A stretch of DNA of 35,318 nucleotides, from the IMG/VR virus record IMGVR_UViG_3300044825_000106, positions 1 through 35,318 of that record; one strand, 5' to 3'. The translations under genes were made by a program, and so were the position numbers. Within the stretch, counting starts at the first letter, position 1; every line of letters starts with the position of its first letter. The DNA is from a virus. Shown here one piece after another: positions 4,027 through 30,700 of the stretch. The notes beneath the pieces were generated by a model. The model worked only from the letters and a program-made list of their open reading frames with translations. It ran no database searches and was not told the origin of the DNA.

Positions 4027-4034
4027 GAGGCATC

Positions 4035-10549: not shown

Positions 10550-10870
10550 ATGACAACGCAATTTACTTGGAAAATTACTGATATGTACACGATCAATACA
10601 CCTGAGCCAGATTTTGTTTGTATGGTGAGATGGTCGTATGTCGGAGTGGATGCGCCTTATGTTGCAAGCATTTCAAATGTCAGCAAGTTTCAAAAACAAA
10701 TTGGCACTTTTACTCCGTATGAAGATTTAACCAAAGAACAAGTAATTGGTTGGATTCAAGAAGAACTTGGGCCTGTAACAATTGGCAATATGCAATCATC
10801 CATCAATGGTGCAATTGAGACACAAAAGAATCCACCACAGGCTCCCCAGCCGCAACCTTTGCCTTGGTAA
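10550..10870 (+). CDS. Fibre-associated small protein (DUF7936-like)
   Basis: 106 residues. It has the familiar order of a Trp-containing start (QFTWKITDMYT), a short beta domain (VRWSYVGVDAPYVASISNVS), TPYEDLTKEQVIGWIQEELG and a Pro-rich end finishing in LPW. This is the small protein commonly found immediately after S74-type fibre genes in environmental phages (DUF7936 by my recollection). A role as fibre assembly factor or fibre-bound subunit is suggested by position only. GGGAG precedes its ATG. Confidence 0.75.
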   Translation: MTTQFTWKITDMYTINTPEPDFVCMVRWSYVGVDAPYVASISNVSKFQKQIGTFTPYEDLTKEQVIGWIQEELGPVTIGNMQSSINGAIETQKNPPQAPQPQPLPW

Positions 10871-10892
10871 AAAATTAAAATGGAGAAAACTC

Positions 10893-11573
10893 TTGAGCGA
10901 GATTAACCAAAACGAGGTACGCAAAGTTTTGATTGCCACTCCATCCCATGACGGGCGTTTGGATGTCTGGTACACAAGCAGTTTGGTAAATACCATTCGA
11001 GTTGCACAATCTGAGGGTATTTTTGTTCACCCTATATTTATGTCTTACGATGCCTTGGTTCAACGGGCTAGAAACGATTTATTTCGTATTGCGGTTGAAG
11101 ACAAATATGACGACATGATATTTATTGATTCCGACCTTGAATGGAATCCAATGTGGATTATGGAATTGTTGCACCGAGAGGAAGATGTTGTTGGTGGAAC
11201 TTATCGCAAGAAAAACGATAATGTTGAGATGTATGTGATCAAGACTAGAAACATTCAATCGAGTGACAATGGATTGATTAAAGTAGATGGTCTTGGCACT
11301 GGCTTTGTAAAACTGTCCCGCAAAGCATTTATGGCGCTTTGGGATTCAAGTGAGCCGTACCAAAATGAAGACCGAGAAGGTCGGATGGTTTGTGACATCA
11401 AGATTGTCAATGGGGAATTGTGCAGCGAGGATGTTGTGTTGTTTCAAAAACTTACGGCACTTGGATTTGATGTGTGGCTTGATCCAAAAATGACTTGTGT
11501 ACACATTGGAACTAAAAAGTTTTATGGAAACTTTGAAGATTTTATTAAACGCCTTGCACAGCAGGCTGCTTAA
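10893..11573 (+). CDS. GT-A fold glycosyltransferase (second copy)
   Basis: 226 residues from a TTG start. GGAG at 10882-10885 stands 7 bases before the TTG, whereas the nearby ATG at 10880 opens only an 8-codon frame. The domain begins KVLIATPSHDGRLDV, followed by YDALVQRARNDLFRIAVE and MIFIDSDLEW, where DSD at 79-81 is the DxD metal site. A later acidic motif (GELCSEDVVLFQKL) matches the catalytic-base region. It parallels the enzyme at 593-1330 and sits directly after the fibre genes, so decoration of fibre or host surface glycan is plausible. The acceptor is unknown. Confidence 0.85.
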   Translation: MSEINQNEVRKVLIATPSHDGRLDVWYTSSLVNTIRVAQSEGIFVHPIFMSYDALVQRARNDLFRIAVEDKYDDMIFIDSDLEWNPMWIMELLHREEDVVGGTYRKKNDNVEMYVIKTRNIQSSDNGLIKVDGLGTGFVKLSRKAFMALWDSSEPYQNEDREGRMVCDIKIVNGELCSEDVVLFQKLTALGFDVWLDPKMTCVHIGTKKFYGNFEDFIKRLAQQAA

Positions 11574-11738
11574 ATGAACAACCAGACTCCCATTACTTTG
11601 AATCTTGAACTGCACGAAATTAACGGCATCCTCCATGCCTTGGGCGAACTGCCGACTAAGAGCAATGCGATGTTTCTAGTTCAGAAGATTCAGGCGCAGG
11701 CACAGGCTCAATTACCGAAGGAAAAAGGTGAACAATGA
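11574..11738 (+). CDS. Small phage protein (LELHEINGILHALGELP family)
   Basis: 54 residues, filling the space between two glycosyltransferase genes. The ATG follows the previous stop directly and the TGA overlaps the next ATG. The core LNLELHEINGILHALGELPT and the Gln/Ala-rich helix after it match a short family often found near holin and fibre genes of environmental phages. Function unknown. Confidence 0.75.
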   Translation: MNNQTPITLNLELHEINGILHALGELPTKSNAMFLVQKIQAQAQAQLPKEKGEQ

Positions 11739-12679
11739 TTCAAGCCAAAGGCGGTACAGAAATTCTTTACGACCGTCTGGCTGCGTGTGTGGACTTGACC
11801 GGGATTAACCTAATCAAGTCTACGGCGTCCCATAAACTGCTTGATCCAAATAAGAAAAACATCCTTTGGGAGCATTTGAGCTATGACCAGCCAAATGTCC
11901 AGGCCCTTAAAGATCAAAGCCTAATCGACCGATTAGACGCCATAGTCTTTGTAAGCCATTGGCAGCACGACCAATTCCGGCGGCACTTTCCCATCCCGGG
12001 TAACAAGTGTTACGTTATTCAGAACGCCACCGAGGCGTCAGCCCACCATGTAAAGCCAAGCAGCAATATCCGTTTGATTTACACCTCTACACCCTGGAGG
12101 GGGCTCAAGGTCTTGGCAGATGTCTGGGAGCGCCTGGGACGGGATGATGTCGAGCTGGTGGTCTATTCCGGGACCAAGATCTATGGCCAGGAGTTTCACG
12201 ATCGAGAGCATCCAAAGTTTGCTCCGATCTACGAAAAGCTCAAGCGGCTGCCTGGGGTGACCCATATTGACTATGCACCCAACGAAGAGGTGCGCCAGGC
12301 GCTTAGGTCATCTCATATCATGGCTTATCCTAATACCTGGGAAGAAACATCTTGCCTGGCCGCTATGGAGGCTTTGACTGCCGGATGTAAGGTGGTAACG
12401 ACCATATACGGGGCCCTGCCGGAAACCTGTGGTGTCTGGGCTGATTACATACCTGCCTCAGCCAATATGGCGGATAGATACGCAGACGCCTTAAATCAGG
12501 CTATTGACAGCTTTTGGGAAGACGAGACCCAGTACAAACTCTTAGACCAGGTTGATCATTACAACAGGTACTGGACATGGGAATATCGACTCAAGCAATG
12601 GAACGACTTTTTCAAGGAGATTAGGAATGGCCGAGAAGTGGATACAAGAGGCAATCAAAAAGCCTGGATCGCTGCGTAA
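11735..12679 (+). CDS. GT-B fold glycosyltransferase (GT4-like)
   Basis: 314 residues, slightly short for a GT-B enzyme. The N-terminal half has AIVFVSHWQHDQFRRHFP and the central YVIQNATEAS, where the two Rossmann domains meet. The C-terminal domain has LIYTSTPWRGLKVLADVWER, and YPNTWEETSCLAAMEALTAG, whose E-x7-E region binds the nucleotide sugar in GT4 enzymes. It begins at GGTE-like KGGTEILYD, the usual donor-loop start, so the N-terminus is minimal. It probably transfers a sugar in the cytoplasm; the acceptor is unknown. Its coding contains GTAACAAGTGTTAC at 12000-12013. The 3' end overlaps the next gene. Confidence 0.85.
   Translation: MIQAKGGTEILYDRLAACVDLTGINLIKSTASHKLLDPNKKNILWEHLSYDQPNVQALKDQSLIDRLDAIVFVSHWQHDQFRRHFPIPGNKCYVIQNATEASAHHVKPSSNIRLIYTSTPWRGLKVLADVWERLGRDDVELVVYSGTKIYGQEFHDREHPKFAPIYEKLKRLPGVTHIDYAPNEEVRQALRSSHIMAYPNTWEETSCLAAMEALTAGCKVVTTIYGALPETCGVWADYIPASANMADRYADALNQAIDSFWEDETQYKLLDQVDHYNRYWTWEYRLKQWNDFFKEIRNGREVDTRGNQKAWIAA
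12000..12013. repeat. Palindrome variant GTAACAAGTGTTAC
   Basis: Both arms are perfect, with AG at the centre. It lies in the GT-B glycosyltransferase gene but in another reading frame (GGT AAC AAG TGT TAC, encoding GNKCY), which argues that the conserved thing is DNA, not a VTGVT peptide. Confidence 0.7.
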
Positions 12680-14620: not shown

Positions 14621-16540
14621 ATGCCTTTCATCAAACTCCAATTTCGTCCTGGTCTGAATCGAGATCAGACCAACTACACCAACGAAGGTGGATGGTTTGC
14701 TTGCGATAAAATTCGCTTTCGATCAGGTTATCCGCAGAAACTTGGAGGATGGTTGGCATCTACTTCTGAAACATTTATTGGTATTTGCCGACAAATGTTT
14801 GGTTGGATTACAAGTTTTGGAGATAACCTTCTTGCCCTTGGAACCAACAAAAAAGTCTATATCAACGTAGGTTCTCAGTATTACGATATAACTCCAATAA
14901 GATTAACTACAGCGGCTGGAGCTGTCACTTTTGCAGCCTCAAATGGCTCATCGGTAATTACGGTTACTAATAACTCTTTTGGTTCTGATGTTGGAGACTA
15001 TGTAACTTTTAGCGGTGTCAATGTTAACGGTCTTGGTGTTGGCGGAAACATTACAAAGGCTGTACTCGAGCAAAACTACGAAATTGCTACAGTCATTAAT
15101 GCAAACAGCTACACGATAATTGCCAAAAGTCCAACAACCGGTTTACCTGTTACTGCTAACGCATCGGATTCTGGTAATGGTGGTGCAGCGGTTGTGGCTG
15201 CTTATGAAATACCGGTTGGATTTGAAATAACAACATACGGTTACGGGTGGGGCGCTGGAAACTGGGGAGAAGATCCTTGGGGTCTTGGAAACAACACGCC
15301 TGTAATTCAGCTTCAAAGAGATTGGTGGTTTGACCAGTTTGATAACGATCTGGTTATGAATATCCGTAACGGGGCCATTTACTACTGGCAACGTCAATCC
15401 AATCTTGTAACAGCGCTTAATACAAATGCTGTTTTGCTTTCTTCACTAACAGGAGCTCAAGATGTACCTGTTGAGGCTATGCAAATACTGGTATCGCAGA
15501 ACGATAAGCATCTTATTGCCTTTGGGTGTGTGCCTTATGGTTCTACTAATGTTGATGATTTTGACCCCCTTCTTATTCGCTGGGCTAGTCAGGACGCTCC
15601 TGAATACTGGAGGCCGGGTACACAAACAGTACCTTCGACTGGAACGATAAGTACGGCCGGTTTTATACGGGTATCCCGTGGATCTCAAATTGTTCGTGCG
15701 CTGCCAACCAGGCAGACAATCCTGGTCTGGACGGAATCTAACCTTTACTCATTCCAATTTACTGGAACGACTGAGATATTCAACTTACAAGAGCTGGCCG
15801 ATAACATTTCTATTATCGGTCCTCGAGCTGTCATATCGGCTAATAACGTCACCTACTGGATGGGGCATGACAAGTTCTATGCCTACGCTGGTGCGGTGGA
15901 GACGCTACCGTGTACTCTTAGAAACCTTGTGTTCCAGGACATCAACTACAACCAGGTTGACCAGATCATTTGTGGAACCAATGAGGGCTTCCATGAGGTA
16001 TGGTGGTTTTACCCAAGCAGCAATAGTCAAACTGTGGATCGATATGTGGTCTATAACTACAACGAACAGTTATGGTATTACGGGACGCTGGCTCGAACCG
16101 CTTGGCTTGATAATCCGTTGCGTGAGTATCCTCAGGCGGTTGGATACGAGAACATTCTTTACGACCATGAGCGGGGTATAGATGCCAATGGAACCCCGAT
16201 GGAGTCTTACATTCAGTCCTCGGACTTTGATTTACAGGACGGCGATCAGTTCATGCTCTCCCGCAGGATTATTCCAGACATCAATTTCAACGGGTCTACA
16301 GCCAATACCCCTGAGATTGATCTAATCATCCGGCCAAGGAATTTCCCAGGATCGACTTATCAAAGCGATACTTTTGATACCCAGCCCGTGGTGCAAAGTT
16401 CTGTAGACATCTATACCAATCAGGTGTTTATCAGAGCTCGAGCAAGGCAGATGGCACTGAAGATTCAATCTACTGACCTAGGAGTTAACTGGCAGCTTGG
16501 ATCGCCCAGGCTTGATGTTCGTCCTGACGGCAGGAGATAA
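14621..16540 (+). CDS. Tail hub / tail nozzle protein (gp12- or gp10-like)
   Basis: 639 residues. The opening PFIKLQFRPGLNRDQTNYTN and GGWFACDKIRFRSGYPQKLG is the hallmark start of the large tail proteins of environmental podovirus-like phages, equivalent in role to T7 gp12 or P22 gp10. Repeated WYYG/WWFYP strands (for example LWYYGTLARTAWLDNPLREY) suggest a beta-propeller-like body. It should form the distal tail tube or DNA-stabilising plug. The first kilobase is richer in A/T codons than the second half, which may mark recombination. The ATG follows the endolysin stop by one base. Confidence 0.8.
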   Translation: MPFIKLQFRPGLNRDQTNYTNEGGWFACDKIRFRSGYPQKLGGWLASTSETFIGICRQMFGWITSFGDNLLALGTNKKVYINVGSQYYDITPIRLTTAAGAVTFAASNGSSVITVTNNSFGSDVGDYVTFSGVNVNGLGVGGNITKAVLEQNYEIATVINANSYTIIAKSPTTGLPVTANASDSGNGGAAVVAAYEIPVGFEITTYGYGWGAGNWGEDPWGLGNNTPVIQLQRDWWFDQFDNDLVMNIRNGAIYYWQRQSNLVTALNTNAVLLSSLTGAQDVPVEAMQILVSQNDKHLIAFGCVPYGSTNVDDFDPLLIRWASQDAPEYWRPGTQTVPSTGTISTAGFIRVSRGSQIVRALPTRQTILVWTESNLYSFQFTGTTEIFNLQELADNISIIGPRAVISANNVTYWMGHDKFYAYAGAVETLPCTLRNLVFQDINYNQVDQIICGTNEGFHEVWWFYPSSNSQTVDRYVVYNYNEQLWYYGTLARTAWLDNPLREYPQAVGYENILYDHERGIDANGTPMESYIQSSDFDLQDGDQFMLSRRIIPDINFNGSTANTPEIDLIIRPRNFPGSTYQSDTFDTQPVVQSSVDIYTNQVFIRARARQMALKIQSTDLGVNWQLGSPRLDVRPDGRR

Positions 16541-16542
16541 GC

Positions 16543-17364
16543 ATGGCGATGATCAAGTTCCGGGCTCCGGCGTTACCGCTGCCTGGACAAAACTACGACC
16601 AGATTCAGTTCTACCAGCTTATCCGGGCGCTTCAGCTTTACTTCAACCAGCTTGACTCCCTGACCCCCATCGAGGTCGATTCAATTACCGCTGCCAATTT
16701 TTTTGGTGGAGAGTTCTTTGGGGAGGGCCGTGGGCTTTACTTCCCCTATATGTGTCTTGAAGACGATGCAGATCAAATTCTGACGGCTGCACTTACCCCA
16801 CAACAGGTTAGGTTCAATGCCAACGTCTCTTACAACGACATATTCTTTACCGGCAACAATGGTCTGCACGCTATTTATGCCGGCGTCTACAACATCCAAT
16901 ATAGTCTCCAGCTGGTCAATACAGCAAACACTCAACATTACGCTTGGGTATGGATTAGAAAAAACGGGGTGGATCTCAAAGGCAGTGCAACCAAGTTTAG
17001 TGTTATATCCAGGAAAAATCCTTCTAGCTTTGGCTATTCTTGCGCAGTATCTAACGTCATAGTCGAGCTTGAGGCTGGGGATTATGTAGAGGTCTGGTGG
17101 GCAGCAGATGCCATCTACGTCCCAGCCACATCAGACGGTATTTACATGGAGTACTACTCTGCCGATTCGGATGGATTTACACATCCCACTTTGCCCTCAG
17201 CATTGGTCACCATGACATTTGTAAGCGAAATGCCGCCCTCGACCGTCTTGGGGGTCTCTGCGCTCGGCAAGGTTGGCTCTGTCACCGTCCAGGCTGCGGC
17301 CAGTAACACTGTTACAGGGGTTTCTGCCACAGGATCTGTAGGAAGCGTTACAGTAAGCGTATAA
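16543..17364 (+). CDS. C1q-like virion decoration protein with GSVTV tail
   Basis: 273 residues. Residues about 90-225 have the strand order of C1q/TNF-like domains: IYAGVYNIQYSLQLVNTANT, AWVWIRKNGVDLKGSAT, and VIVELEAGDYVEVWWAADA. The C-terminus has two copies of the module VGSVTV (ALGKVGSVTVQAA and SATGSVGSVTVSV), shared with the proteins at 4035 and 6239. AGGAG at 16532 supports the ATG. It probably forms a trimer on the tail or capsid surface and may contact host sugars (inference from the fold class). Confidence 0.75.
   Translation: MAMIKFRAPALPLPGQNYDQIQFYQLIRALQLYFNQLDSLTPIEVDSITAANFFGGEFFGEGRGLYFPYMCLEDDADQILTAALTPQQVRFNANVSYNDIFFTGNNGLHAIYAGVYNIQYSLQLVNTANTQHYAWVWIRKNGVDLKGSATKFSVISRKNPSSFGYSCAVSNVIVELEAGDYVEVWWAADAIYVPATSDGIYMEYYSADSDGFTHPTLPSALVTMTFVSEMPPSTVLGVSALGKVGSVTVQAAASNTVTGVSATGSVGSVTVSV
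17303..17315. repeat. Shortened palindrome GTAACACTGTTAC
   Basis: Same two arms with a one-base centre (13 bp), inside the C-terminal VTG module of the C1q-like gene. It may be a variant site or a coincidence of the related coding; spacing differs from all other copies. Confidence 0.35.
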
Positions 17365-17386: not shown

Positions 17387-17677
17387 ATGGATGATCAGCA
17401 GTTCCTTGCCCTGGTCACGGAGGTGGCTAAGGTGGCAAAGCCTATGCACAAAAACACGGTCGTAGTAGATGAAATGGACACTCCCTGGCCGGAATTTGAG
17501 ATTGACAGCCTGGATTGCATAATGATCTTCATCTATATGTGCGACATCTACGGCGTCCCGGAAGAGGTGGGCAAGACCCTCATGGCCAAGACGCCTAGGG
17601 ACCTTCAGGCTTTCCTGGCCCAGAATAAGACCAGGGAGCCGACCAGCATCCAGGAGGCGGTGGAGTCGATCCAATGA
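17387..17677 (+). CDS. Acyl carrier protein
   Basis: 96 residues, near the usual 75-100 for ACP. Helix I is DQQFLALVTEVAKVA; the loop ends in EFEIDSLDCIMIFIYMCDIY, where S41 of D-S-L is the expected phosphopantetheine attachment serine. Helices II and III follow (GVPEEVGKTLMAKTPRDLQA). Holo-ACP would carry a growing acyl chain as a thioester. The gene ends in ATGA overlap with a beta-ketoacyl-ACP synthase, so the two very probably work together. No phosphopantetheinyl transferase is seen here, so the host enzyme would be needed. GGAGG at 17378-17382 precedes the ATG. Assignment rests on motif and partner. Confidence 0.8.
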   Translation: MDDQQFLALVTEVAKVAKPMHKNTVVVDEMDTPWPEFEIDSLDCIMIFIYMCDIYGVPEEVGKTLMAKTPRDLQAFLAQNKTREPTSIQEAVESIQ

Positions 17678-18786
17678 TCCATCTCACCCATGCCAGGACA
17701 GCCTATTCCGAGGTAACAGAGTTATTCGAGGATGCCTTCTACCCCCAGAGGGTGCATTGGTTTCCAGAGGCCTTTAACCGGCTTCAGACCAAGATGTTCT
17801 ATGTACCCCACCGGGTGGCCGATAAAGTCTTAGATCCTGAGCTCTGTACGTTTCTTAGGGAAAACCCAGTAGGTAAGACAGCTTTCATCCTGGCCGGCGG
17901 GAATCAGCACTTTGCCGGTATCCAGAGAACAGCCAAGACCAGCCGCCTGGCGTATGAGTACCGATTCCTACCCCTAACCCTTACCCAGGTCTATGCCGGC
18001 AGGATTGGCCAGCAAATGGGGGCCCATGACCTAATCCAGACCGATGCCACGGCCTGTGTCTCGAGTCTCAAGGTTCTAATGGACACCGAGGTATTGATGA
18101 AGCATTACGGGTTTGACCGGGTAATTGTCTTGGCGGTCGAGGATGCCGTAAGCGACTCGGTATTGGAGTTTTTTGGGGAGTCCGGGGCCAGTCTTACCCT
18201 GAAACAAGAGCAGGAGGGCATTGTCCCGTCAGCCTTTGATGAGAAGAACCGGGGTTTCTATGTCGGCCAGGGGGCAGCTTTGGCTGTCTTTGAGAGCGAC
18301 CAGGCGGTAAAAGTAACAGGTGTTACACCCATAGCCCGGTTGTGCGGTGCTTATACGGCCAGTGAGAACTGCTCAAACGCCATAGGCCAACGGGAGGATG
18401 GGGAAGGGTATGTAAAAGCAATCTGGGGGGCTTTGGCTCAGACCCAGTACCACCCGGACAGGATCAAAATTGTCAAAACCCACGGTACGGGAACGCCATC
18501 GAATAATCAGGCTGAAAAAGCCGCCCTTGAACGATCTTTACCAGGGGGCTTTATTGCAACCAGTTTTAAGCCTAAAATCGGACATACGATGGGGGCAAGC
18601 GGGCTTCTGGAAAGCGTCATGCTTTTCGAGTCAATCTCCAGAGGCGTAGTCCCGGCCATTCCCAATCGCACCCAAAATGACTCGGTATTTTTGTCGCAAG
18701 ACACGGCAGCCCCCGAAGGGCTGGTTTTGAGTTTAGCGGCTGGTATGGGTAACGTCTATTCCGCCGCCATATTTGAGGTGACCTAA
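17674..18786 (+). CDS. Beta-ketoacyl-ACP synthase (KAS I/II-like)
   Basis: 370 residues, a little shorter than FabF/FabB (about 400-410). The thiolase-fold active site is intact: C128 in TDATACVSSLKVL, H270 in VKTHGTGTPSNNQAEKAAL, and K299/H304 in KPKIGHTMGASGLLESV. EKNRGFYVGQGAALAVFES matches the conserved strand before the second half, and AAGMGNVYSAAIF replaces the usual GFGGTN end. It would condense an acyl group with malonyl-ACP, adding two carbons. The cognate ACP overlaps it upstream. Purpose in infection is unknown: reshaping host membrane lipid, or making an acyl group for a virion or surface component (inference). The coding contains the 14-bp palindrome at 18313. Confidence 0.9.
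   Translation: MIHLTHARTAYSEVTELFEDAFYPQRVHWFPEAFNRLQTKMFYVPHRVADKVLDPELCTFLRENPVGKTAFILAGGNQHFAGIQRTAKTSRLAYEYRFLPLTLTQVYAGRIGQQMGAHDLIQTDATACVSSLKVLMDTEVLMKHYGFDRVIVLAVEDAVSDSVLEFFGESGASLTLKQEQEGIVPSAFDEKNRGFYVGQGAALAVFESDQAVKVTGVTPIARLCGAYTASENCSNAIGQREDGEGYVKAIWGALAQTQYHPDRIKIVKTHGTGTPSNNQAEKAALERSLPGGFIATSFKPKIGHTMGASGLLESVMLFESISRGVVPAIPNRTQNDSVFLSQDTAAPEGLVLSLAAGMGNVYSAAIFEVT
18313..18326. repeat. GTAACAGGTGTTAC palindrome, copy 6
   Basis: Exact copy inside the ketoacyl synthase gene, encoding VTGVT at residues 214-218, a segment between conserved strands that has no family constraint I know of. Confidence 0.8.
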
Positions 18787-19256
18787 TGGCCGGATTTGTC
18801 GATAGCAAACAGCGAATGCTCTCTAGTACAGAGTTACTTGGCATCGCTGCCGCCAATCAAGAGGAAGATGTTCCCCCTCGAGCTGTCCTTGCGGGAATCA
18901 AAACAGAGTTAAAACAACCAGGTACGTTGCCAATGCGATTTGGTAACACAATCTTTATTGTCCACAAGGGCAAAGAGAGAACCGGTTTCTTTCGGGCTTT
19001 GAACGCAGACGTTCCCAGGAATTACTTGGATAACAGCTATCGATTTACCAAAGAGATCTATGACATGGGGTTTGACTTTCTAGTAACCCAATATCGAGAT
19101 CCAAGTATCAATACCATTTTTAAGTCTATCGCCCGGAAACCCCCTCGTGAAGGAATGGGCTTCCAAACTCAAAAACTTCCTAATGGGATGTATCAATCAA
19201 TCTTCAAGGCTGGTCCCACCCGCAGCGGTGATGACCTAATGAAGGAGAAGAAATAA
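18786..19256 (+). CDS. Internal virion protein, gp13-like (possible acyltransferase fold)
   Basis: 156 residues. It begins AGFVDSKQRMLSSTELLGIA, a start I recognise from a protein that opens the internal-virion gene block in environmental podovirus-like phages. The middle RFGNTIFIVHKGKERTGFFR and DFLVTQYRDPSINTIFKSIA resembles GNAT-type small proteins such as T7 gp13 in layout, though no acetyl-CoA motif is clear. It overlaps the KAS gene by TAATG. Most likely an assembly or internal virion factor; a link to the acyl genes upstream is speculative. Confidence 0.6.
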   Translation: MAGFVDSKQRMLSSTELLGIAAANQEEDVPPRAVLAGIKTELKQPGTLPMRFGNTIFIVHKGKERTGFFRALNADVPRNYLDNSYRFTKEIYDMGFDFLVTQYRDPSINTIFKSIARKPPREGMGFQTQKLPNGMYQSIFKAGPTRSGDDLMKEKK

Positions 19257-20659
19257 TGGGTGGCGTAGTAGACGCAATTGGTGACGCAATAGGTGATGTT
19301 GTTGACTTTGCCGGTGATGCGGTTGAATGGGTAGGAGATACCGTATCCAATGTGGTTCAGGCAGCCATCGATGATCCATTAAAGACAGTCGTTCAAGTAG
19401 CAGCTGTTTCCACAGGCAATGCCTGGGCGCTGCCGTACATCGAGGGAATCGATACTCTTGAAGAAGGTGGATCTCTTGAAGACGCCTTGGTCAATGGAGT
19501 GAAAACCTACGTTGTTCAACAAGGCGTTGGGGCTGTTATGGATTCATTCGGAACCGCCCCCGGTGTGGATGTAAACGGAACTACCCAATTCTTTGATGAT
19601 GGTTCATCGATTCAATTCTTTGACGATGGATCAACCCTGGCCACAGATACCGCTGGCGCTGTCACCTCATCTCCAGCTACTGACTTCATAACTCCAGCTG
19701 CTGGGGATGCTACAGGATTTACTCCATCTGGCGGTGTAGAAACTCTTTCTATCCCAGATCCAAATGCTGCTGTACCGCCACCGGGCGGAGAGGTAGGACC
19801 ATTAGTGTCCGAGGCGGGCACAGAAGTGTTCCCCGTTGCTCCTCCTGGACCAGTAGACATATCAGAAATCGCTGGCGTACCAGTAGCAGCGATTTCATCA
19901 CCACCGGTAGAAACTTTGCCGGTTCAGGACTTATTTAGTCAGACGGTCAATTTACCTGGCCAAGAAGGAAACATTTACAGATTTGATGACGGATCAACGC
20001 TTCAAATGTTTGACGATGGTTCAACGATGGCAACCGATATTGACGGGAACCCAACATTCTCTCCGGGTACTGATGTGGTCACCCCTGGGTATGTAGATCC
20101 CAACGCTCCAGGATTTGGGGAGCAGGGTACGGCTGAGGTCATTGATAGAAGTGTTCGCAGCGAAGATCTGCCACCAGGAACAGACCGCCCAATTACCGAT
20201 GTCATAACTGATATTGTTAAAGAGGGTGGATCAACAATCTACGACTACGTTACCGAGAATCCGATTACAACCATCGTAGGCGGCGCAACTATTGCTGGGG
20301 CATTAGATACAGAGAAAACGCCTGAGAAATCGCCAGAGCCTGAGAAAAAGACTTACACCTATCAGCCGGCAGCTCAGATTGGTTCTACCAAGGGTCTTCA
20401 GGAGCTTTGGAGCGCAGCACAAAGTATCTATGGTGACAAACTTACCGAGATGATTGGTATTACTCCAAACCAGATGCCTCAAGGATCGGCAACTACCTCT
20501 CCACTACTTGGTGGCCCAGCACCTGGTGGAATTGGATCTTTGCGCACGACATTTGCAACTGGAACACAAGCACCAACCTTTGATGTAAATACGCTAACGC
20601 CGGAGCAGATTGTCAGACTTCAAGGCTTGCTCGAGCGCAGACGGGGTGAAATGATATGA
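19256..20659 (+). CDS. Internal virion protein with duplicated FDDGS block
   Basis: 467 residues. The N-terminus (VDAIGDAIGDVVDFAGDAVE, then WVGDTVSNVVQAAIDDPLKT) is an amphipathic Ala/Val/Asp helix typical of structural proteins that insert in membranes. Two similar blocks with FFDDGSSIQFFDDGSTLATD and FDDGSTLQMFDDGSTMATD lie about residues 113-150 and 240-280, joined by Pro/Gly/Val linkers. The end (GSTKGLQELWSAAQSIYGDK) is conserved in related phages. It is probably packed in the capsid and ejected with DNA. Start chosen at TAATG with a GGAGAAG site. Confidence 0.7.
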   Translation: MGGVVDAIGDAIGDVVDFAGDAVEWVGDTVSNVVQAAIDDPLKTVVQVAAVSTGNAWALPYIEGIDTLEEGGSLEDALVNGVKTYVVQQGVGAVMDSFGTAPGVDVNGTTQFFDDGSSIQFFDDGSTLATDTAGAVTSSPATDFITPAAGDATGFTPSGGVETLSIPDPNAAVPPPGGEVGPLVSEAGTEVFPVAPPGPVDISEIAGVPVAAISSPPVETLPVQDLFSQTVNLPGQEGNIYRFDDGSTLQMFDDGSTMATDIDGNPTFSPGTDVVTPGYVDPNAPGFGEQGTAEVIDRSVRSEDLPPGTDRPITDVITDIVKEGGSTIYDYVTENPITTIVGGATIAGALDTEKTPEKSPEPEKKTYTYQPAAQIGSTKGLQELWSAAQSIYGDKLTEMIGITPNQMPQGSATTSPLLGGPAPGGIGSLRTTFATGTQAPTFDVNTLTPEQIVRLQGLLERRRGEMI

Positions 20660-22011
20660 ATATGAATAGACAAGGGATTGCCAATCTGGCCAGACAAGGC
20701 CGTGGTGGCGATTCGATGCTTGTTCACATGAGGCCTGATGAAGTAGCCGCTATGCAGCGCATGGCCCAGCGATCAGGTACATCGATGACGGTGAACCCAA
20801 AGACTGGGCTGCCTGAGGCGTTCAAGCTCAAAGACCTATTCAATATCAATACTTACACCAGACCTGTTCGGGATGTTGCTGAAAATATAGGCCTAGGAGG
20901 AGTCTCTGATGCTATATCTAGTGGATTCAAAACCCTTGGGCAAAACGCTCAATACATCCTTCCTTTCATACCAGGAGGAATGTTTGCGGGACTTGGAAGT
21001 CTTGGCCAGTTTGCAGCTTCGCCTATGGGTAGAGGCTTACTGGCAGGCGGCATTGGTTCTCTTGCAGGGGGCCGGTTCAATCTTAGACGGGGCCTTATGT
21101 CGGGATTGACCACCTACGGTCTAAGCAGTGCGTATCAGGGGTTACAGGCTGCTGGTCAAACGCCTACCTCTGGGGTATTTGGTGGAGATGTTGAAGCCCA
21201 GCCAGGCGGATTCTATGGCGGTGCTCCCGATACCAGAACCGCTGCCGATGTAATTAATCAGTCTTTGAATGAAGAAGTAGCCGGGCGGCCAGCGTTGATG
21301 GATCTGCCGGATAAGGTTGTACCGGTTCAAGCCCCAGCAGCTCCAGCCAGAACAGGATTCATGGGTGAGCTCGAGGCTGCCGGTCGAGGAATTAAGAATA
21401 TCGCTATGGGAGATAAAACCACTAGCGATGCAGCAATGAAGGCCTTTGGTTCTAAGTTTGGCCGTGGCGCTATGGCATCCACCTATATGGGGGTAAGCGG
21501 CCTGGCAGCCATCAATGAGGAAGAGAAGTACCTCGAGGAGGCCCGTAAGAACCAACAGATCTCCGAGGCCGAGTTTGCTGAACGCAGGGCCAGGATTGAA
21601 GCTGCCAAGAAACGGGCGATGGAAGCCGTAAAAGCTAACCCGTATAAATTTGCTATTGGCGGGGAAATCAGTGATGAGTACCGCCTTGAGACCCCTGAGC
21701 TTGGCGGGAAGTCTCCAGACCAACGCAATGTATTTGGCCTGGCTGCCGGCGGTATGCCACCTCGATATATCGATGGTCCTGGCGATGGGATGAGCGATTC
21801 GGTCAAGGCTCGTATTGGTGGATTGCAGGAAGCCAGACTGGCTGATGGAGAGTTCGTAATCCCGGCCGATGTGGTATCCCACCTGGGTAACGGATCATCC
21901 AAGGCAGGGGCAAAACAGCTCTACGCCATGATGGATCGGGTTCGCAAAGCAAGGACTGGAACGACCAAGCAGGGCAAAGAGATTAAACCGAACAAAATGA
22001 TGCCGGCGTAA
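20656..22011 (+). CDS. Internal virion protein with LADGEFVIPADVV signature
   Basis: 451 residues. It opens NMNRQGIANLARQGRGGDSM, has a Gly/Ala-rich hydrophobic region (ILPFIPGGMFAGLGSLGQFA, GLLAGGIGSLAGGRFNLRRG) that may cross or insert in membrane, a charged helix, and then GPGDGMSDSVKARIGGLQEA, RLADGEFVIPADVVSHLGNG and KAGAKQLYAMMDRVRKARTG. That C-terminal signature is very widespread in internal or ejection proteins of environmental tailed phages. It likely helps form the DNA conduit through the host envelope (inference). It overlaps both neighbours within a few bases. Confidence 0.75.
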   Translation: MNMNRQGIANLARQGRGGDSMLVHMRPDEVAAMQRMAQRSGTSMTVNPKTGLPEAFKLKDLFNINTYTRPVRDVAENIGLGGVSDAISSGFKTLGQNAQYILPFIPGGMFAGLGSLGQFAASPMGRGLLAGGIGSLAGGRFNLRRGLMSGLTTYGLSSAYQGLQAAGQTPTSGVFGGDVEAQPGGFYGGAPDTRTAADVINQSLNEEVAGRPALMDLPDKVVPVQAPAAPARTGFMGELEAAGRGIKNIAMGDKTTSDAAMKAFGSKFGRGAMASTYMGVSGLAAINEEEKYLEEARKNQQISEAEFAERRARIEAAKKRAMEAVKANPYKFAIGGEISDEYRLETPELGGKSPDQRNVFGLAAGGMPPRYIDGPGDGMSDSVKARIGGLQEARLADGEFVIPADVVSHLGNGSSKAGAKQLYAMMDRVRKARTGTTKQGKEIKPNKMMPA

Positions 22012-22020
22012 AGGATAGAT

Positions 22021-23283
22021 ATGCCAACGAACACCACTACCGTATCGGGTCAACAGACCATACCAGAGATACTAGAACCGTACTTTATAGGCGGGGAAGG
22101 TATATCTGGGTTATTACCGACTGCACAGGGTGTATTCGCCCGTGACTACGCCACGGTGTTTCAACCGCTTCAGCAAGCTGGTCTCTTAGGGGCTGGGCGG
22201 GTTGCTGGACTATCTCCAACACAAGAATCCCTTGGCGCACAAATCAAAGGGATGGGAACCCCTGCTCAGTTCGGAGCTGCTACAGGGTATGCTGGCCAGG
22301 CGGCAGCTGGATTACAAGGATTGCAAGGTACTCAAGCCCTTACTGTAGGGGCTCCAGAGCTTACGACTTTTCAGATGGCCCCGACCGCCACGGTAGCGGC
22401 CCCATCTTTGACCACTTTCCAAATGCAAGCCCCCCAGACCTTTGGGGTAGATCAAGCCCAGCAATATATGTCTCCTTATGCGCAGTCGGTTACCGATGTA
22501 GCCAAGCGCAAGGCCATTGAGGATGCCCAGCGCACACAACTGGCTGGCAATTTGGCAGCAGGACGGAAAGGGATGCTGGGAGCTTCAGCAAATCTTCTAG
22601 CCACCACCGAGCGTGAACGTGCCTTAGGTACTCAACTAGGTGACATCCAAGCCCGTGGTCTTGAGGCTGCGTATCAGTCTGCTCAGCAGCAATTTGAGCG
22701 GGATCGTGCAGCAGCTCAACAGGCTAACCTGCAAAACCTCCAGGCTCAGCTTGGTGTTCAGCAGCTTGGTTCACAGCAGGGGCTTCAGGCTCAACAACTT
22801 AACCAAGCCGCCTTGCAAGAGGCTGCTCGTCAGAATTTGACCGCCGCTTTGGGTGTCCAGCAATTTGGTGCTCAACAGTCTTTACAAGCCCAACAGGCTA
22901 ACCAACAGGCCGCACTTCAGGCAGCACAGCAGCGTTTGGCTGCATCTCAAGGCCTTGGTGGTCTGGCTGCAACGACTGGCCAGCTTGGTGTTGCCCAACA
23001 AGCCTCTGAGCTCGATAGACTTAAAACCCTGGGTGCTTACGGAGACCTTGAAAGAGCTTACGCCCAACAGCAGCTCGATGCCCGTTATCAAGAAGCTCTG
23101 CGCCAGATTGGATTCCCAGAAACTCAGCTTGCTGGTATGGCCAACCTCTTGCGTGGCGTCCCGCTCAGCGAGACCATGTATACGACCACACAGACAACCC
23201 CGCCGCCATCGTTTGCAAGTCAGCTTGCTGGTTTAGGGTTATCCGGTCTAAGCCTCTACAACTTACTGGGTAGACAGCAATGA
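22021..23283 (+). CDS. Gln/Ala-rich coiled-coil internal virion protein
   Basis: 420 residues, with Gln and Ala dominating residues 200-340 (QANLQNLQAQLGVQQLGSQQ is typical), predicted as a long helical or coiled-coil rod with a degenerate LGVQQxGxQQxLQAQQ repeat. The end has LAGMANLLRGVPLSETMYTT and SQLAGLGLSGLSLYNLLG, a tail conserved in related phages. AAAGGA precedes the ATG. It probably belongs to the ejected internal core with its neighbours. The ATGA overlap with the next gene suggests coupled translation. Confidence 0.75.
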   Translation: MPTNTTTVSGQQTIPEILEPYFIGGEGISGLLPTAQGVFARDYATVFQPLQQAGLLGAGRVAGLSPTQESLGAQIKGMGTPAQFGAATGYAGQAAAGLQGLQGTQALTVGAPELTTFQMAPTATVAAPSLTTFQMQAPQTFGVDQAQQYMSPYAQSVTDVAKRKAIEDAQRTQLAGNLAAGRKGMLGASANLLATTERERALGTQLGDIQARGLEAAYQSAQQQFERDRAAAQQANLQNLQAQLGVQQLGSQQGLQAQQLNQAALQEAARQNLTAALGVQQFGAQQSLQAQQANQQAALQAAQQRLAASQGLGGLAATTGQLGVAQQASELDRLKTLGAYGDLERAYAQQQLDARYQEALRQIGFPETQLAGMANLLRGVPLSETMYTTTQTTPPPSFASQLAGLGLSGLSLYNLLGRQQ

Positions 23284-24785
23284 GTATTCTTGACGCACTT
23301 AAGGTTCAAAAGGCTGAACGGCAGTCTGTTAGAGACTTGGCCATGCTCCCACAGCAGCTCATCGTTCAGATGGCGCAGCGGGGTGATATACCAGCCGAAG
23401 TCTTTCCGGTGGTCATCAACGAGAAAGCTCGGATGGCCGAAGAAAAGGAACGGATGCTTGCTTTGGCCTCTCAAGGTCAACCCAATACTACAGTTCTTGA
23501 AAAGGGCATGGCCGTCAATGCTCGGGCAGAAAATCCTCAAGGAATTGCCCAGATGGCCCCACCTCAAGCCCCTCAAGCTCCTCAAGCTCAAGGACTCCCT
23601 GGGGTGGTAAATACGCCGGAAGTACAAGCAACCGGTGTATCAGGGCTACCAACCGGGCAGATGTTCTCTCCTCAAAACTTTGCAGGTGGCGGGATTGTGG
23701 CGTTTGCTGGAGAAGGTCGATCGGATGTAAACCTATTTGACATTGTGGACCAGCAGCAGCGTCAAGATCCCAGCTTTGCAGGTATGTTCCAGCCTAAAGA
23801 GGAACCAGCTCCTGCCGACATGACTGGATTCCGCCGCCGTTATGCAAGCCTGGCTGATGCCCTAAAGGATGTTCAGTCAGCTACAGGACCGATGCGGCAG
23901 GTAAGTGCAGAAGAGATCGCCCTCCAGGAATACCTTACCAAGTCCAAGCCCAGAACCGAGGCAGAGTCAGCTCAAAGTGGCTGGCTGCGGGCCCTTGAAG
24001 CTGGTCTTGGGATCATGGGTGGAACGTCTCCCTATGCCCTTACCAACATTGGCAAAGGTGCTGAATCGGCTGTCAAAGGCTTTTCTGAAGATGTCAAAGA
24101 ACGCCGTAAAGGTGAGCTTGCCACCCTTAGCGCAGCCGCCCAACAGGCCCGTCAGAAACGCCTTGAGGGTATTGAAGATGTCAAAGAGGCCCGTCAGCTG
24201 CTGGAAAAAGATCTTGAGGCTGAATATCGGGAGCGTGTACTTAGCCGGCCTACAGACCTGGATAAGACCACCAAGATTTACTTTGACGCTGCCGTAGCTC
24301 GAGGGGCAGATCCTAAAGATCCGAAAACGATGGAAGCTGCCCGTAAGAGAGCTTACGAGGATGTTGGCCTGGCTGCCGCCCGTGTTGGCACTCAACAATT
24401 TGGCATTGAGTCCCAGAACCGCCGAGAGGCCAGCAATTATGTTGAGTCCCGTCTTGGCAAACAGGCCAACCCAGAGGCACTCAAGATGCGCCGCCTAGAG
24501 CAAGAAGACAAGAAAAACGGTACAGAAACAGCTGCTGCATACCGGGATGAATTGTTTAGGGAGGCTTTTGGACGTATTTCCCGTGGGGAAACTTTATCTG
24601 GTGCGCTTAAGGCCGGAGAACCAGCTCCTAAACCTGAAGCTAAAGCCGAACCCAAGGCAGCTCCTAAGGGAGGGGCTGGATTGCCAGAAACTGCTAAAGC
24701 GCAACTCAAGGAAGGATTTGTCACTAAGTTCAGTAATGGGCAAGAATGGACGCTTAGAAACGGTCAACCTGAACGGGTGAAGTAA
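23280..24785 (+). CDS. Internal virion protein with MFSPQNFAGGGIVAFAGEG motif
   Basis: 501 residues. The N-terminal part (VRDLAMLPQQLIVQMAQRGD) leads to a Pro/Gln linker and the conserved motif LPTGQMFSPQNFAGGGIVAF, known from internal proteins of many environmental phages. The central region (residues about 235-330) has LRALEAGLGIMGGTSPYALT followed by charged coiled coil; the C-terminus is Lys/Ala/Pro-rich and ends VTKFSNGQEWTLRNGQPERV, a short beta motif common at such ends. It overlaps the giant protein gene by TAATG. Likely part of the ejected core. Confidence 0.75.
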   Translation: MSILDALKVQKAERQSVRDLAMLPQQLIVQMAQRGDIPAEVFPVVINEKARMAEEKERMLALASQGQPNTTVLEKGMAVNARAENPQGIAQMAPPQAPQAPQAQGLPGVVNTPEVQATGVSGLPTGQMFSPQNFAGGGIVAFAGEGRSDVNLFDIVDQQQRQDPSFAGMFQPKEEPAPADMTGFRRRYASLADALKDVQSATGPMRQVSAEEIALQEYLTKSKPRTEAESAQSGWLRALEAGLGIMGGTSPYALTNIGKGAESAVKGFSEDVKERRKGELATLSAAAQQARQKRLEGIEDVKEARQLLEKDLEAEYRERVLSRPTDLDKTTKIYFDAAVARGADPKDPKTMEAARKRAYEDVGLAAARVGTQQFGIESQNRREASNYVESRLGKQANPEALKMRRLEQEDKKNGTETAAAYRDELFREAFGRISRGETLSGALKAGEPAPKPEAKAEPKAAPKGGAGLPETAKAQLKEGFVTKFSNGQEWTLRNGQPERVK

Positions 24786-27700
24786 TGGCAGACAAAGGCT
24801 GGGATGTAGTCTCCACCAGTAAGGTTGGAGCCGATCCGTGGGCAGTAACAGGTGTTACACCTCTAGGAGAACCAGAAGCTCCCTTGGTAAGCCCAGAGGA
24901 GATGCTTACTCCCACCCCTGGAGCCCCAGTCACCCCGACCGATATGGCCAAAGCTGTCGGGGAGCGTCTAGTCGGTGGTGCAAAGTACATTGCTGGGACC
25001 GAGCCTGAGAAGCGTGGCAGCCTAATAGGCGATGTTGTAACCGGTGTCGAGCGGGCCAATGTTGGCGCAGCCGGTGTATTCCGAGCCTTATCCGAGGCAG
25101 CAGCCCCAGTCTTAGACCCAATTACAGGAAAGATCCTCCCAGAGAATCCTCTGCGCCGGATAGCGTCTGAGTTCGAGCGCCTTGGGAAAGAATCAGAAGC
25201 CAGGATCAAAGCCAAGGCCCCTACTGAAGAACAAGACGTTATCTCCGCAGGTGTCTCAAGCGGAATCCAAAGTCTTACCCAGAGCCTTATGGCTATCCCA
25301 ATGGCATTCTTGCCTGGTGGGCAGCCAGCAGCTCTTGTCATGCTGTCCACTAACACAGGCGGTAACGCCTACCAGGAGGCTAGAAACAAGGGCCTAAGCC
25401 CAGCACAGGCCATCCCATACGCTGTCTCCCAGGCAAGTATTGAGTACGCCACCGAGGTAATGCCTCTTACCAAGCTAGTCTCGGACATCAATCAGAAGAC
25501 CGGCTTTGGCAAGCTCTTGATGAACCAAATCGTCCGAGAGGTTCCGGGAGAGCAAGTCGCTACCGTGCTCCAGGACATGAACGACTGGGCCGTACTGAAC
25601 CCAGAAAAGACCGCCCAACAATACTTGGAAGAGCGTCCCAGCGCAGCAGCCCAGACCCTGGTGGCCACGATCGTTGGCGTTGGCGGGAACGTAATTGTTG
25701 GTAAAGCCCTCCAGACTGTTGCTGGAGCAGGGGAGAAGCCTGAAGCCCCCAAAGTGGAACCTACCCTTGAAGCCCCAGAGGGTTTTGATGTGGTCTCGGT
25801 TACCCCGATCGAGCCCGTAACACCTGTTACTCCAACAGCCCCGCCTGCTCCAGAAGCTGCACCGCCGGCTGCCCCACCGCCCACAGAGGTAGCTCCAGAG
25901 GAAATTACCGGCCTTACCGCAGCCGAGTTTGAGGCCCCACCTGAAGAGGCTGTCACACCTGTTGCAGAAGCCGTAACACCTGTTACTCAAGAGACAGCTA
26001 CAGAAGCACCAGCCCCGGTCGAGCCACCCCCGGTCCAGAACCTGACCGGCGGCCTACCTATCCAGGAGATTCCGATTAAGGATCTCAAGGTCTCCGATGA
26101 GGTTCCCCAGTTCAAGATTGGGGCTACCAAAGAGGGTGTGGTTGAGCCCCTGGGTGGGAAGTTTGAGCGCACCGGGGTAGCACCGATCCAAGTCTGGCGG
26201 AGAACGGATGGAAGCCTTGAGGTGATCTCAGGCCGCCACCGACTCGACCTGGCTAAGCGGAGCAAGGAAAAGACCATCCCTGCCCAGATACACGATGAGG
26301 CGCAAGGGTTTACTCGAGACAAAGCAGCAATCCTGGATGCGGAGTTGAACATCCGTGACGGCCAAGGAAAGGTGAAAGACTATGTTGGATACTTCAAAGG
26401 TTCAGGAATCTCCAGAGACGAGGCAGACGCACGAGGCCTATTGGCGAGAGCGATTGGCAAGCGGTCTTACGCCATCGCAGCTGACGGATCTGAGGAGCTC
26501 ATTACCGCCCATCGTGCCGATGCAGTCGGAGACGAAGCAGCCTACCTCATCGCCCTCAATGCCCCCAAGGATGCCAGCCTCCAAGCCGTAGGCATTAAGG
26601 CGGTCCAAGACGGCAAGAGCGCAGCCTCGGCGGTCAATCTTATGCAAGCGGTCAAGACCTTGGCCGGGGAGCGAGAGACCACCACCGATATGTTCGGGTT
26701 CGATGAGTCGGCCATGAAAGAGGCCGAAGAGATGGCCAAGATCGCCGCCCGTAAGCAGCGGGAGATCCAGCAGCGTCTCAGTGCTATTTCTGGAGCTTCA
26801 AAGAATCCTGAGCTGGCTCGTAAAGAGGGGATCAACATTGATAACCCAGAAGCTGTCCGGCAGCGGGTTGATGAGCTGCGCCAGGCTAAGGCTACATGGG
26901 ATAACTGGTCATCAAGCTCTGACCTTATTGGCCAGATCCGGGCTGAGATGGGCCCGTCTGAATTTGCCCTACAGCAGCAGACCGAAGAGGATCTACGGGC
27001 TCAAGAGGCAGCCGCAGCCGAGCGGGAAGCAGCCGAAGTCAAAGCGATCGCTGACCGTGAAGTCGGTCTATTTGGATTGCAGCCACAGGTTCAAGAGCGG
27101 GAAGCACCGCCGTCCGGGGATCTGTTTGGAGCTCGAGGCTTAGCAGAGCAGCCAGCCAAGAAAGCACCAGCAGCGCCACCCACAGAGACTGGCTTGTTTG
27201 CGCCTAAGGAAGAGGCTCCGAAAGATGTGTCTTTGAGTGAGGCTGAGTTTGATGCTCTAACAGCCAGGCCCTATGACGAGCTTAGCAGGGACGAAAAAGA
27301 GCGGATGTTCGTTTACAACGATGTGTTCCGCTCTTCAGGTGTCGAAGTAATTCGGCAGCCGGAGAATGGAAACGAAATCAATCTGAAGCCGTATAAGAAC
27401 GGATACGTTGCATCGATTAGCTACATTGGGAAGAAAGAGGGTCGATCAGCTCCGGTTTCGGCGTTTATTAATGAGTCCAATCCTGTTTACCCGGATCGCA
27501 AGTCTGCAATCAAAGCCAAGGCCGAACAGATCCGAGACATGGCAGTCAAGTCCAAGGACCGCAAGGCCCTGCTCTGGCTGGGCGATGTCATTCGGAAAGA
27601 GGGCATCACGCTAGATAAGGCGTTGCCGGTTAAACCAAGTAAGGAAAAGCAAGCCGAGATCAACCGGGAACGCCAGGCAGCCAAGAAGGAGGCGGTTGCA

Positions 27701-30700
27701 GCTGAAGAAAAACCGGTCAAAGGTGACGTCCTATTGCTCGAGGCAGACGAGCAAGCTGTTTCGGAAGCCCTCGAGCCGTCTGATCCAGAAGATGAGCGTA
27801 TTGCAGCTCTGTTTAACCCAGACCAAAAGCCGGCTAAGCCACAGGCAGAAGAGACTCTTACCCAGGCCCAAGCTAAGAAGCTAGTCAATAGCTGGAAGCA
27901 AGAGGCCAAGAATCAAGGCAAGTCTGGCAAGAACGGCGACAAGACTGTCATCAGCCTATTTGATGCGTCTGGCGAATGGGCTAAGCCTTGGGCAGATGCT
28001 GGGTTCAATGTAGTCACCTATGACCTCCAAACCGGCGATGACATCCGAGAATTTGATGCTGCAAGCCTGTTGGAAGCTCATGGGAATGACAATGTATGGG
28101 CAATTCTTGCAGCTCCACCATGCACCGACTTTGCTTCCTCTGGAGCTCAGTACTGGGCCAAGAAAGATGCTGAAGGCAAGACCGAGGCAAGTAACGAGTT
28201 AGTTCGCCAGGTGTTGCGTACTGTTGAGCTATTCCGCCCACCGGTCTGGGCTATGGAAAATCCTGTCGGCCGGATGGCAAAACTCAACGAGCTGCCACCT
28301 GCCCAGCTTACTTTCCAACCTAATCTCTACGGAGACCCGTACACCAAGAAGACCTTGCTCTGGGGTAACTTCAACAACCAGCTGCCGGAATCCCCTGTAG
28401 CACCGACAGAGGGTTCCAAGATTACCGAGAAGATTAGCGGAACCAACAAGTACGCTAGGTCATTGACGCCAGAAGGCTTTGCTTATTCGTTCTTCATGGC
28501 CAATAACCCGGAGAACATGACCCAGGAAGAGCGTCTTTCCAGAGAGTTTCATGGAATTGCTCCGAGCGAATTTAAGGGTGCTGGCACAGAAGAACAGATC
28601 CGAGACACCATTTCGGACAATTACTACGATGGCGATCTTGAGTCGGTGCGTGATGCTCTGAAGGTAATGAGAACGCTTGGCAAGCGGCCACCATCGATTG
28701 AGCTTGAAAACATCGATCTGGCCAACATCGATCAGAATCTGCCTGGCGCTAAGAAGAAGCTCCCACCGGGACGCTCTCCTGAACTGGCAGCAGCCGCACA
28801 GCAGCTCCAGCGTGGCGAGATCACCAAGAAAGAATTTGATGAGCTGGTCAACCGCTTTAGACCAATACCTGTCTACACTGAGCCGTTAAAGCCGGCCACA
28901 CCAGAGCAAATGTTTGACGCCCTGGATACAGCCAAACGGGAGAAGATCAACCCGGACATCAAGGCTGGCACATCGGTCGGACTACGCTTGGACATCCCTG
29001 CATTTAACCGCAAGGGCGTCTTTGTCGTCTCAATCCATGAGAAGCGCACACCCAGTGCAGCCGGCAAGACAATCGGCTATGGGTCTGTTGCCAAGATCAA
29101 GGATGTAACTTTTGGACTAGGTAAAGAGACTGAAGCGCTCAAAATAGCAGCTGGTGCATCTAAGGATGTACTCCAGACAATGGAAGGTAAGTGGGTTCCG
29201 ACCAATCCTGAGGAAGCCTATCGGGAAGCTCAGGCCGCCATCAAAAACCCTGAGTGGATACAGATCGGCATTGACCCGACCCGCCATTCATATTTCTACG
29301 ACCGCCGCACAACCCAGCCTGTCATCAAGGCAGACGAGATCATCCAGATCGGGAACATGATTCTGGGTAAAGGGGTGGAGTTTGGTAAGAAAGAAGACTT
29401 CCTCTTTAACATTGCTTCGGACCCAGTAACAACTGTTGCCGAGGTACGAGATGGAATTGAAAATTCCCGTAAGCAGCAGCTTGAAACGCTTGCCCGTCTT
29501 GCCCGTAAGAAGTCTGAGCTAATCAAAAAGGTTCGCAATTACGGATCGGACATTGAGACCCAGCGGCTTTTGAATGAGCTTGAAGCTGAGATCAAGATGT
29601 TCCGTCTGGGTTCTGCGATCCGTGAACCATCTACTTCAGCCGAAGCATTTCTGAAACACGCCAGGGACGCTATGGATGGTACTGGGCCGTTCAGAGAGCC
29701 GGTCTTATCTCCTGATGTGTTTGCCACAATTCAGGCGGCCTATATCAAAACACCGTGGATCTTAGAGGGGCTGCGCTTATCAATTAAAGCTCCGAAGTAC
29801 CCGTCATATTTAAATATAAATCCAGCTGCCGGTGTGTTCTTGCCATACGAGCGGATTGTCCGTCTCTATTCTGGTACGACAGGGGTGGAAGATCCAGTGA
29901 CACCTCGGCACGAGCTTATGCACTCGCTTGAGCAGATGATGTCCAAGGGGGCCAAGGATGCGGTAATCAAGGCCTGGGCCAATAGTTTGGAAAAGGCGAT
30001 CAAAAAATATACCGACAAGCGCAGCCAAGAGTATTTCAACAAGATCATGGAGTTTCTTGAGAACCCATCGGAAACCACTCGCCAAGAAGCTCTTTCGGTG
30101 CTCCCGTCTTACGACCTGTATCAGTACATCAACCCGTCTGAATACTGGGCGGTGAATGCTGAGAAACTCTTTAACTCTAAGCTCGGTACAGCATGGGATC
30201 GATTCAAGAAAGCCATACAAAAACTGTTTGAGGGTCTCAAGAACGTATTTGGTTTCAATAACACCTATGCGGTTCACAAGATGTTTGATGACCTGATGAA
30301 GACCAAACCCCCTCGAATGGGCAGGGAGAGTTTGGTTAACTATATGCTCTCAGGTCGAGCAAACATCAAGTTTCTTGAAAACGTCCAGAAGGTCGATGAC
30401 CTGTTGGCCAAGCAGAACGTGCCTGATACGCCGATGCTGGCCACCAGTGTGGTGAAGACCAAGATTCTGAACGCTGCCCGGGACATGAAGGATCTGTTCA
30501 AAGACATGATCCAGAACCCCAGAGAGATCCCGATGATGGCGTTTAACGGGATTGACTACGGGATTACCTACCTGCGGAACAAGAACATCTGGTTTGGTAC
30601 GGGCCTAAACGCTGCTGACTTTGCCAAGTACAACGGAGAGCTCAAGACCGGGGAGAACCTGGCCACCGCCTCTTTGGCCTTGGATAACGCCATCCGTGGT

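Follow-up and report, generated by a model that had tools for sequence, protein, structure and literature searches.

A complete pair of acyl carrier protein (ACP) and β-ketoacyl-ACP synthase (KAS) is encoded within the structural block of a phage genome, where overlapping reading frames join it to the gene of a GNAT-fold protein, o156, and through o156 to the gene of a probable ejection protein with a conserved N-terminus. In short-tailed phages of the P22 type, ACP, KAS and o156 would together constitute an ancient cassette that serves virion assembly. The reading of this arrangement that we favour, though only tentatively, is that an acyl-ACP dedicated to this purpose is produced by ACP and KAS, and that o156 moves its acyl group to the N-terminus of the ejection protein. 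When a phage carries a single fatty-acid gene, the usual explanation is that host metabolism has been borrowed. Here, scores of environmental contigs link a complete, apparently ancient and purely viral ACP and ketosynthase to a GNAT-fold protein and to injection proteins.

Organization of the locus

In the window (the entire stretch of 35,318 nucleotides that was analyzed), the upstream flank of the cassette is a P22 gp10-like virion structural protein (14621–16540; PHROG 3287, E = 8.9e-67), one relative of which carries the annotation 'phage stabilization protein'. A variable fibre or needle-type gene (16543–17364), found in some relatives only, lies between the gp10-like gene and that of the ACP (17387–17677). 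The ACP has 96 amino acids and a DSLD motif in which S41 is the predicted 4′-phosphopantetheine site. According to the list of open reading frames, its stop and the start of the KAS gene (17674–18786) share 4 nt. The KAS, a protein of 370 amino acids, has the triad plus Lys of the KAS I/II type. Its stop shares 1 nt with o156 (18786–19256), a candidate acyltransferase that occupies the position of P22 gene 14, and o156 in turn shares one base with o467 (19256–20659). The product of o467 is a probable ejection protein and a candidate acyl acceptor, and begins with the conserved sequence M-[S/G]-A-V-V. Positions 20656–24785 encode o451, o420 and o501, three more proteins that are probably internal or ejected; o420 weakly matches a PHROG 'DNA ejection protein' family (1.9e-4). 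All these genes, from the gp10-like gene to o501, are on the plus strand. The ejection operon is closed by a gene for a giant, probably injected protein of 2852 amino acids (24785–33343), which carries, close to the C-terminus, an LPD38 'large polyvalent protein' domain (4.4e-22).

An intact carrier protein and ketosynthase

Searches of Pfam and the PDB with the single ACP sequence returned no match. With the family profile, all 54 matches in the PDB were ACPs, and in a pairwise comparison E. coli AcpP aligned with the profile at the DSLD motif. The AlphaFold2 model (pLDDT 93) has the four-helix ACP fold, with the DSL-type serine at the start of helix II (residues 41–55), and its best 50 matches in the PDB are all ACPs. 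The motif D40-S41-x-D43 has its three defined residues invariant in an alignment of relatives (81/81), and the dN/dS of the gene is ∼0.10.

The KAS matches both halves of the superfamily in Pfam above the cut-off (Ketoacyl-synt_C, 6.4e-18; ketoacyl-synt, 2e-07) and FabF structures in the PDB (6.5e-24). Alignment of E. coli FabF by hhalign brings Cys128, His270, Lys299 and His304 into register with the FabF active site, so that both Pfam halves and the Cys-His-His triad with its Lys place the protein in the KAS superfamily, as a KAS I/II type. The corresponding family, PHROG 35856, is listed as of 'unknown function'. These four residues are invariant in 82 of 82 KAS sequences and are also kept in a more divergent set (53–57% identity). 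Within the block, moreover, conservation is highest for the KAS, with a median identity of 62% compared with ∼38% for the gp10-like protein, ACP and o156, and its dN/dS is ∼0.07. Given the invariant catalytic residues, the highest conservation in the block and the low dN/dS, the enzyme is in all likelihood active and under strong selection, as judged from its sequence. The ACP and KAS genes are real and not chance reading frames. The first-pass annotation had described the pair as catalytically complete, and this holds across the relatives: a loss of the active site or of the DSL serine, which was looked for, is seen in none of them.

The KAS has in common with FabF/KAS II and FabB/KAS I the thiolase-fold C-terminal half, the Cys-His-His triad plus Lys, the HGTGT and GHT motifs and an adjacent ACP partner. 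It differs from them in its shorter N-terminal region, in its low identity to E. coli FabF (26% over 256 aligned columns) and in an invariant AAGMGN[VI]YSA, noted by eye, where FabF and FabB usually have the GFGG gate loop. It is not an orthologue of FabF or FabB: it falls in a separate clade (support 100/100), and its match to the NCBIfam FabF model (2e-30), at 105.7 bits, is far under the equivalog cut-off of 493.75. The KS-α/chain-length factor (CLF) pairs of type II polyketide synthesis, CFA3 (coronafacic acid) and AmcF (cispentacin) likewise associate a KAS with a discrete ACP, and the last two are short like the phage enzyme, at ∼370 amino acids. The phage KAS nevertheless has no KS-β partner, has kept its catalytic Cys and does not group with KS-α, CLF or CFA3 in a tree that was built without AmcF. 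A chain-length factor (KS-β) or a dead KAS is thus ruled out by the Cys kept in 82/82 sequences and by the absence of any grouping with CLFs, a placement that had been named beforehand as a possible refutation.

Distribution and viral origin

A scan of IMG/VR found 176 contigs that encode relatives of the KAS, the best 80 of which are 57–71% identical to it. The same arrangement of the block is found in MW202545, a deposited phage genome from Manatee Spring (USA), and gene order was examined in these 80 contigs and MW202545. In all 81 loci, wherever the contig is long enough, the order is gp10-like, (variable fibre), ACP, KAS, o156. The ACP is found in 80 of the 81; the remaining contig starts a short way before the KAS gene. 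For o156 the count is 79, and both contigs without it stop directly after the KAS gene. The placement of such a pair inside a structural block, remarked on as unusual in the window, is therefore a fixed feature of these phages. Use during assembly, which had been proposed from the late position of the genes, is likely since the pair lies inside the structural block. Its fixed place beside the genes of injected proteins suggests that it provides an acyl group for the virion and is not a stray metabolic gene.

In a maximum-likelihood tree with FabF, FabB, KasA-type, aryl-polyene, KS-α, CLF, coronafacic-acid and environmental KAS as references, the viral sequences all fall into a single clade (100/100), whose stem measures 3.4 changes per site. 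All cellular KAS fall opposite this clade, which lies outside FabF, FabB, KS-α and CLF; in this tree, where the placement of the long stem is itself unsure, the viral KAS join neither the CLFs nor any modern host FabF. Cellular KAS are at most 31% identical to the phage enzyme. A recent host origin is rejected on the basis of one scan of ∼85,000 genomes, which yielded a single phage-type match. This match, L084, is a contig of a Balneolaceae metagenome-assembled genome, and is itself a phage or prophage since it carries the viral ACP-KAS-o156 together with lysis genes. It gives a possible lead to a Balneolaceae host, although a binning artefact is conceivable. Taken at the level of sequence, the KAS is a long-established viral enzyme.

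Genes for AcpS, FabD (malonyl transferase), FabG and FabA/Z are absent from 10 phage records, nine of them of 53–65 kb, in searches whose controls were positive. The pair is therefore not a general lipid pathway, nor, with FabD, FabG, FabZ and AcpS all missing from these records, is it a host-type fab operon carried as auxiliary genes. It must draw on the host for AcpS and malonyl-ACP; what it delivers is a β-ketoacyl chain unless host enzymes carry out the reduction.

The main rival to acylation of an ejection protein is remodelling of host lipids, in which ACP and KAS would change the fatty-acid pool or the membrane lipids of the host and the late operon would only set the timing. Auxiliary metabolic genes described from phages include acpP, fabF or an ACP alone (PMC8224337, PMC10653327, PMC11705849), and both acpP-fabF-fabG prophages and viral fabF reads have been interpreted in this way (PMC8224337, PMC10653327). 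A KAS predicted to be catalytically intact would suit such a role, as would the lack of other fab genes in the phages, so that host fatty-acid synthesis must be tapped. Against it, the pair is locked to o156 and to the ejection genes in every KAS-bearing relative and is viral by its tree, unlike typical recently acquired host genes, and feeding host synthesis needs no dedicated ACP. This explanation is rather unlikely. Rhodobacteraceae prophages and Alteromonas phage R22Y do carry an ACP and/or a KAS, as here, but their genes are reported to be host-like acpP-fabF-fabG clusters or a lone ACP, whereas the KAS of the window belongs to a separate viral clade and its cassette, unlike those genes, has a fixed place in the structural block. 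No published description of the viral KAS clade or of the cassette was found in the part of the literature that was covered.

o156, a GNAT-fold protein in the place of P22 gene 14

Sequence searches with o156 in Pfam, PHROGs and the PDB gave no usable match, and its family of 52 members matched nothing in Pfam. Its fold is clear from the AlphaFold2 model (pLDDT 89), which has the strand and helix order of the GNAT topology. The best 50 Foldseek matches of the model in the PDB are all GNATs, and the closest fold is that of RimI, the N-α-acetyltransferase of ribosomal protein S18 (Z 11.4 over 125 residues, 3.2 Å). The dN/dS of o156 is ∼0.12.

In the turn between strand 4 and helix 3, o156 has N73-A-D75-x-x-x-N79, with N73, D75 and N79 invariant. 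The pyrophosphate loop R/Q-x-x-G-x-G/A (β4-α3) is missing, and o156 is accordingly not a canonical CoA-dependent GNAT acetyltransferase. As the glycine-rich CoA loop is replaced by NADxxxN, an atypical acyl donor is possible, and the predicted loop would suit a donor other than CoA. Toxin-activating acyltransferases have a catalytic His/Asp dyad (PMC8510554); o156 has no invariant His and is not an acyltransferase of this HlyC type.

One viral protein among the structural matches of o156 belongs to DUF2824, the family of P22 gp14. In P22 the gene order is 10-26-14-7-20-16, so o156 stands in the place of gene 14, before the ejection proteins. P22 gene 14 and T7 gene 13 are, like o156, small genes between those for head completion or the tail and those for ejection; unlike the phage of the window, P22 and T7 have neither ACP nor KAS in this region. 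The likeness is limited to position and fold: sequence homology of o156 to P22 gp14 or T7 gp13 is undetectable (hhalign probability of 0.05% against gp14/DUF2824), and o156 is not assigned to the gp14 family.

Linkage and exchange of the cassette

Among the 80 closest o156 loci, the KAS adjoins o156 in 79. A search with the gp10-like protein gives a wider view. With 62 loci offering enough room, 53 lack every gene of the trio and six contain it in full, while one (a truncated contig) has ACP and KAS, and two have o156 only. In L177, L262 and L274, o156 is present while KAS and ACP are absent, and no KAS occurs anywhere on the contig. Contigs of 38–67 kb with the same gp10 and no KAS are also found. 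Any of these records may be incomplete. Because most gp10 relatives lack all three genes, the trio behaves as a swappable cassette: it is one of several interchangeable versions of this genome region, and not every phage of this kind requires it.

Several KAS-less relatives encode, near their ejection genes, other small proteins with a GNAT-like look when inspected by eye (L226: 8723–9154; L228: 8374–8817; L247: 5853–6266; L282: 6573–6992). They matched no Pfam family, and are possibly alternative acyl- or acetyltransferases acting at the same step.

These patterns bear on whether o156 is an enzyme. It could be a non-enzymatic assembly factor like P22 gp14, with ACP and KAS as a separate inserted unit of two genes. 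The contigs with o156 only would fit this, and so would the GNAT-looking small proteins seen by eye in related phages without KAS and the DUF2824 model among the structural matches. The strong linkage of o156 to KAS makes such a division of the trio unlikely: their genes overlap by one base, a KAS is present in 79 of the 80 closest o156 loci, and o156 is present at each KAS locus that has room for it.

The N-terminus of the protein encoded after o156

The protein encoded directly after o156 ranges in length from ∼300 to 2000 amino acids and is variable in sequence, but its N-terminus is constant. The consensus is M-[S/G]-A-V-V-x-A-[V/I]; after it comes an amphipathic stretch, which is rich in Val and Asp in o467. 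Among 32 non-redundant loci, defined by KAS sequences less than 90% identical to one another, 29 have Ser or Gly at position 2, as against ∼8% of the other genes there, and the pattern M[SGAT][AGVSKI][VAL] is found in 31 of the 32, against a background of 1.5%. The rule is kept in 16 of 18 loci whose o156 is less than 50% identical. In six more divergent gp10-relative loci with a readable start, position 2 is again Ser or Gly and positions 3–5 differ. A strict search for M[SG][AG][VA] in the gp10-relative loci returned nothing, even where a KAS is present, because these genes have a GTG start codon or differ from the pattern at positions 3–4. The contigs with o156 only (L177, L262, L274) keep Ser or Gly at position 2, and the rule therefore tracks o156 and not KAS.

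The initiator Met is normally removed before Ser or Gly, leaving a free α-amino group. From its position and make-up, and not from a family match, the protein after o156 is probably an ejection protein. Two counterpoints deserve mention. Since o156 loci without KAS and ACP keep the Ser/Gly rule, o156 might take its acyl donors from the host or have a purely structural role. The conservation of the N-terminus, for its part, could reflect an amphipathic helix to which it belongs.

A possible route to acylation of a virion protein

The presence of an acyltransferase-fold neighbour and of a fixed, free N-terminus on a probably injected protein suggests protein N-acylation. In such a scheme, host AcpS would load phosphopantetheine onto the phage ACP, and the phage KAS would elongate or choose the ACP-bound acyl chain with host malonyl-ACP; as far as the intact active site indicates, reduction by host FabG, FabZ and FabI would be optional in this chain-building step. 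The acyl group would then be passed by o156 to the product of the next gene, at the Ser or Gly that its N-terminus exposes, and the acylated ejection protein might insert more readily into the envelope while the DNA is being delivered. That a phage should have its own carrier protein is understandable if the acyl chain, too, has a destination of its own. It is more doubtful that the genes amount to a virus-encoded lipidation machine, in which the chain made by a private ACP and ketosynthase is attached by a GNAT-fold enzyme to the Ser or Gly of an injected virion protein.

The HlyC/ApxC and CdiC acyltransferases have a GNAT-like fold. They use acyl-ACP to lipidate a membrane-acting product of a neighbouring gene, and o156 would do likewise. 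These enzymes nonetheless work with host ACP and no dedicated KAS, and o156 has no invariant catalytic His. A delivered protein is also the target in the case of CdiA, which is lipidated by an acyl-ACP-dependent acyltransferase whose gene, CdiC, adjoins the target gene (PMC8510554). Eukaryotic N-myristoylation would be functionally alike, the phage version being ACP-driven and part of DNA delivery.

LuxI-type synthases also combine a GNAT-like fold with the use of acyl-ACP. By this parallel, a GNAT fold adjoining ACP and KAS could finish a small acyl product, such as a signal or a lipid cofactor, or provide a lipid that is packaged into the virion but not attached to a protein. The cassette occupies the place of P22 gene 14, between gp10-like and ejection genes, and o156 is also found without KAS, both of which speak against a product of this kind and render it improbable.

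A review of podovirus ejection proteins stresses the membrane insertion of the first ejected protein and does not mention acylation (PMC8954989). If an acyl group is indeed placed on a virion protein, a type of post-translational modification new for viruses would have come to light, one that would help in studying how short-tailed phages get through the cell envelope, and small proteins near podovirus ejection genes, such as P22 gp14 and T7 gp13, would gain a testable function. Were acylation of the virion protein shown, the cassette would be categorically new.

Other features of the window

Three glycosyltransferase-like genes lie in the late region (593–1330, 10782–11573 and 11735–12679). 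Only the last passes the Pfam cut-off, with a clear match to a glycosyltransferase family, and the other two are below it. A partnership of the pair with these genes on a glycolipid had been among the initial proposals. It finds no support in the relatives: the two genes within 8 kb upstream, 10782–11573 and 11735–12679, have no homologue in any KAS-bearing relative locus. o156 and the conserved N-terminus of the next protein, neither of which the first-pass annotation had picked out, are better partners.

The proteins encoded at 3283–4026 and 4817–5497 are each similar to the SU10 adaptor family (1.3e-5, just below the cut-off, and 1.9e-24, respectively), and the head–tail adaptor is possibly duplicated. 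A repeat of ∼25 amino acids, VTGVxATGxVGSVxVxxxAxV, makes up most of a protein of 421 amino acids (6239–7504), and one or two copies of the same type are present at the C-termini of the proteins encoded at 16543–17364 and 3954–4472. By eye, it looks like a common surface or attachment repeat.
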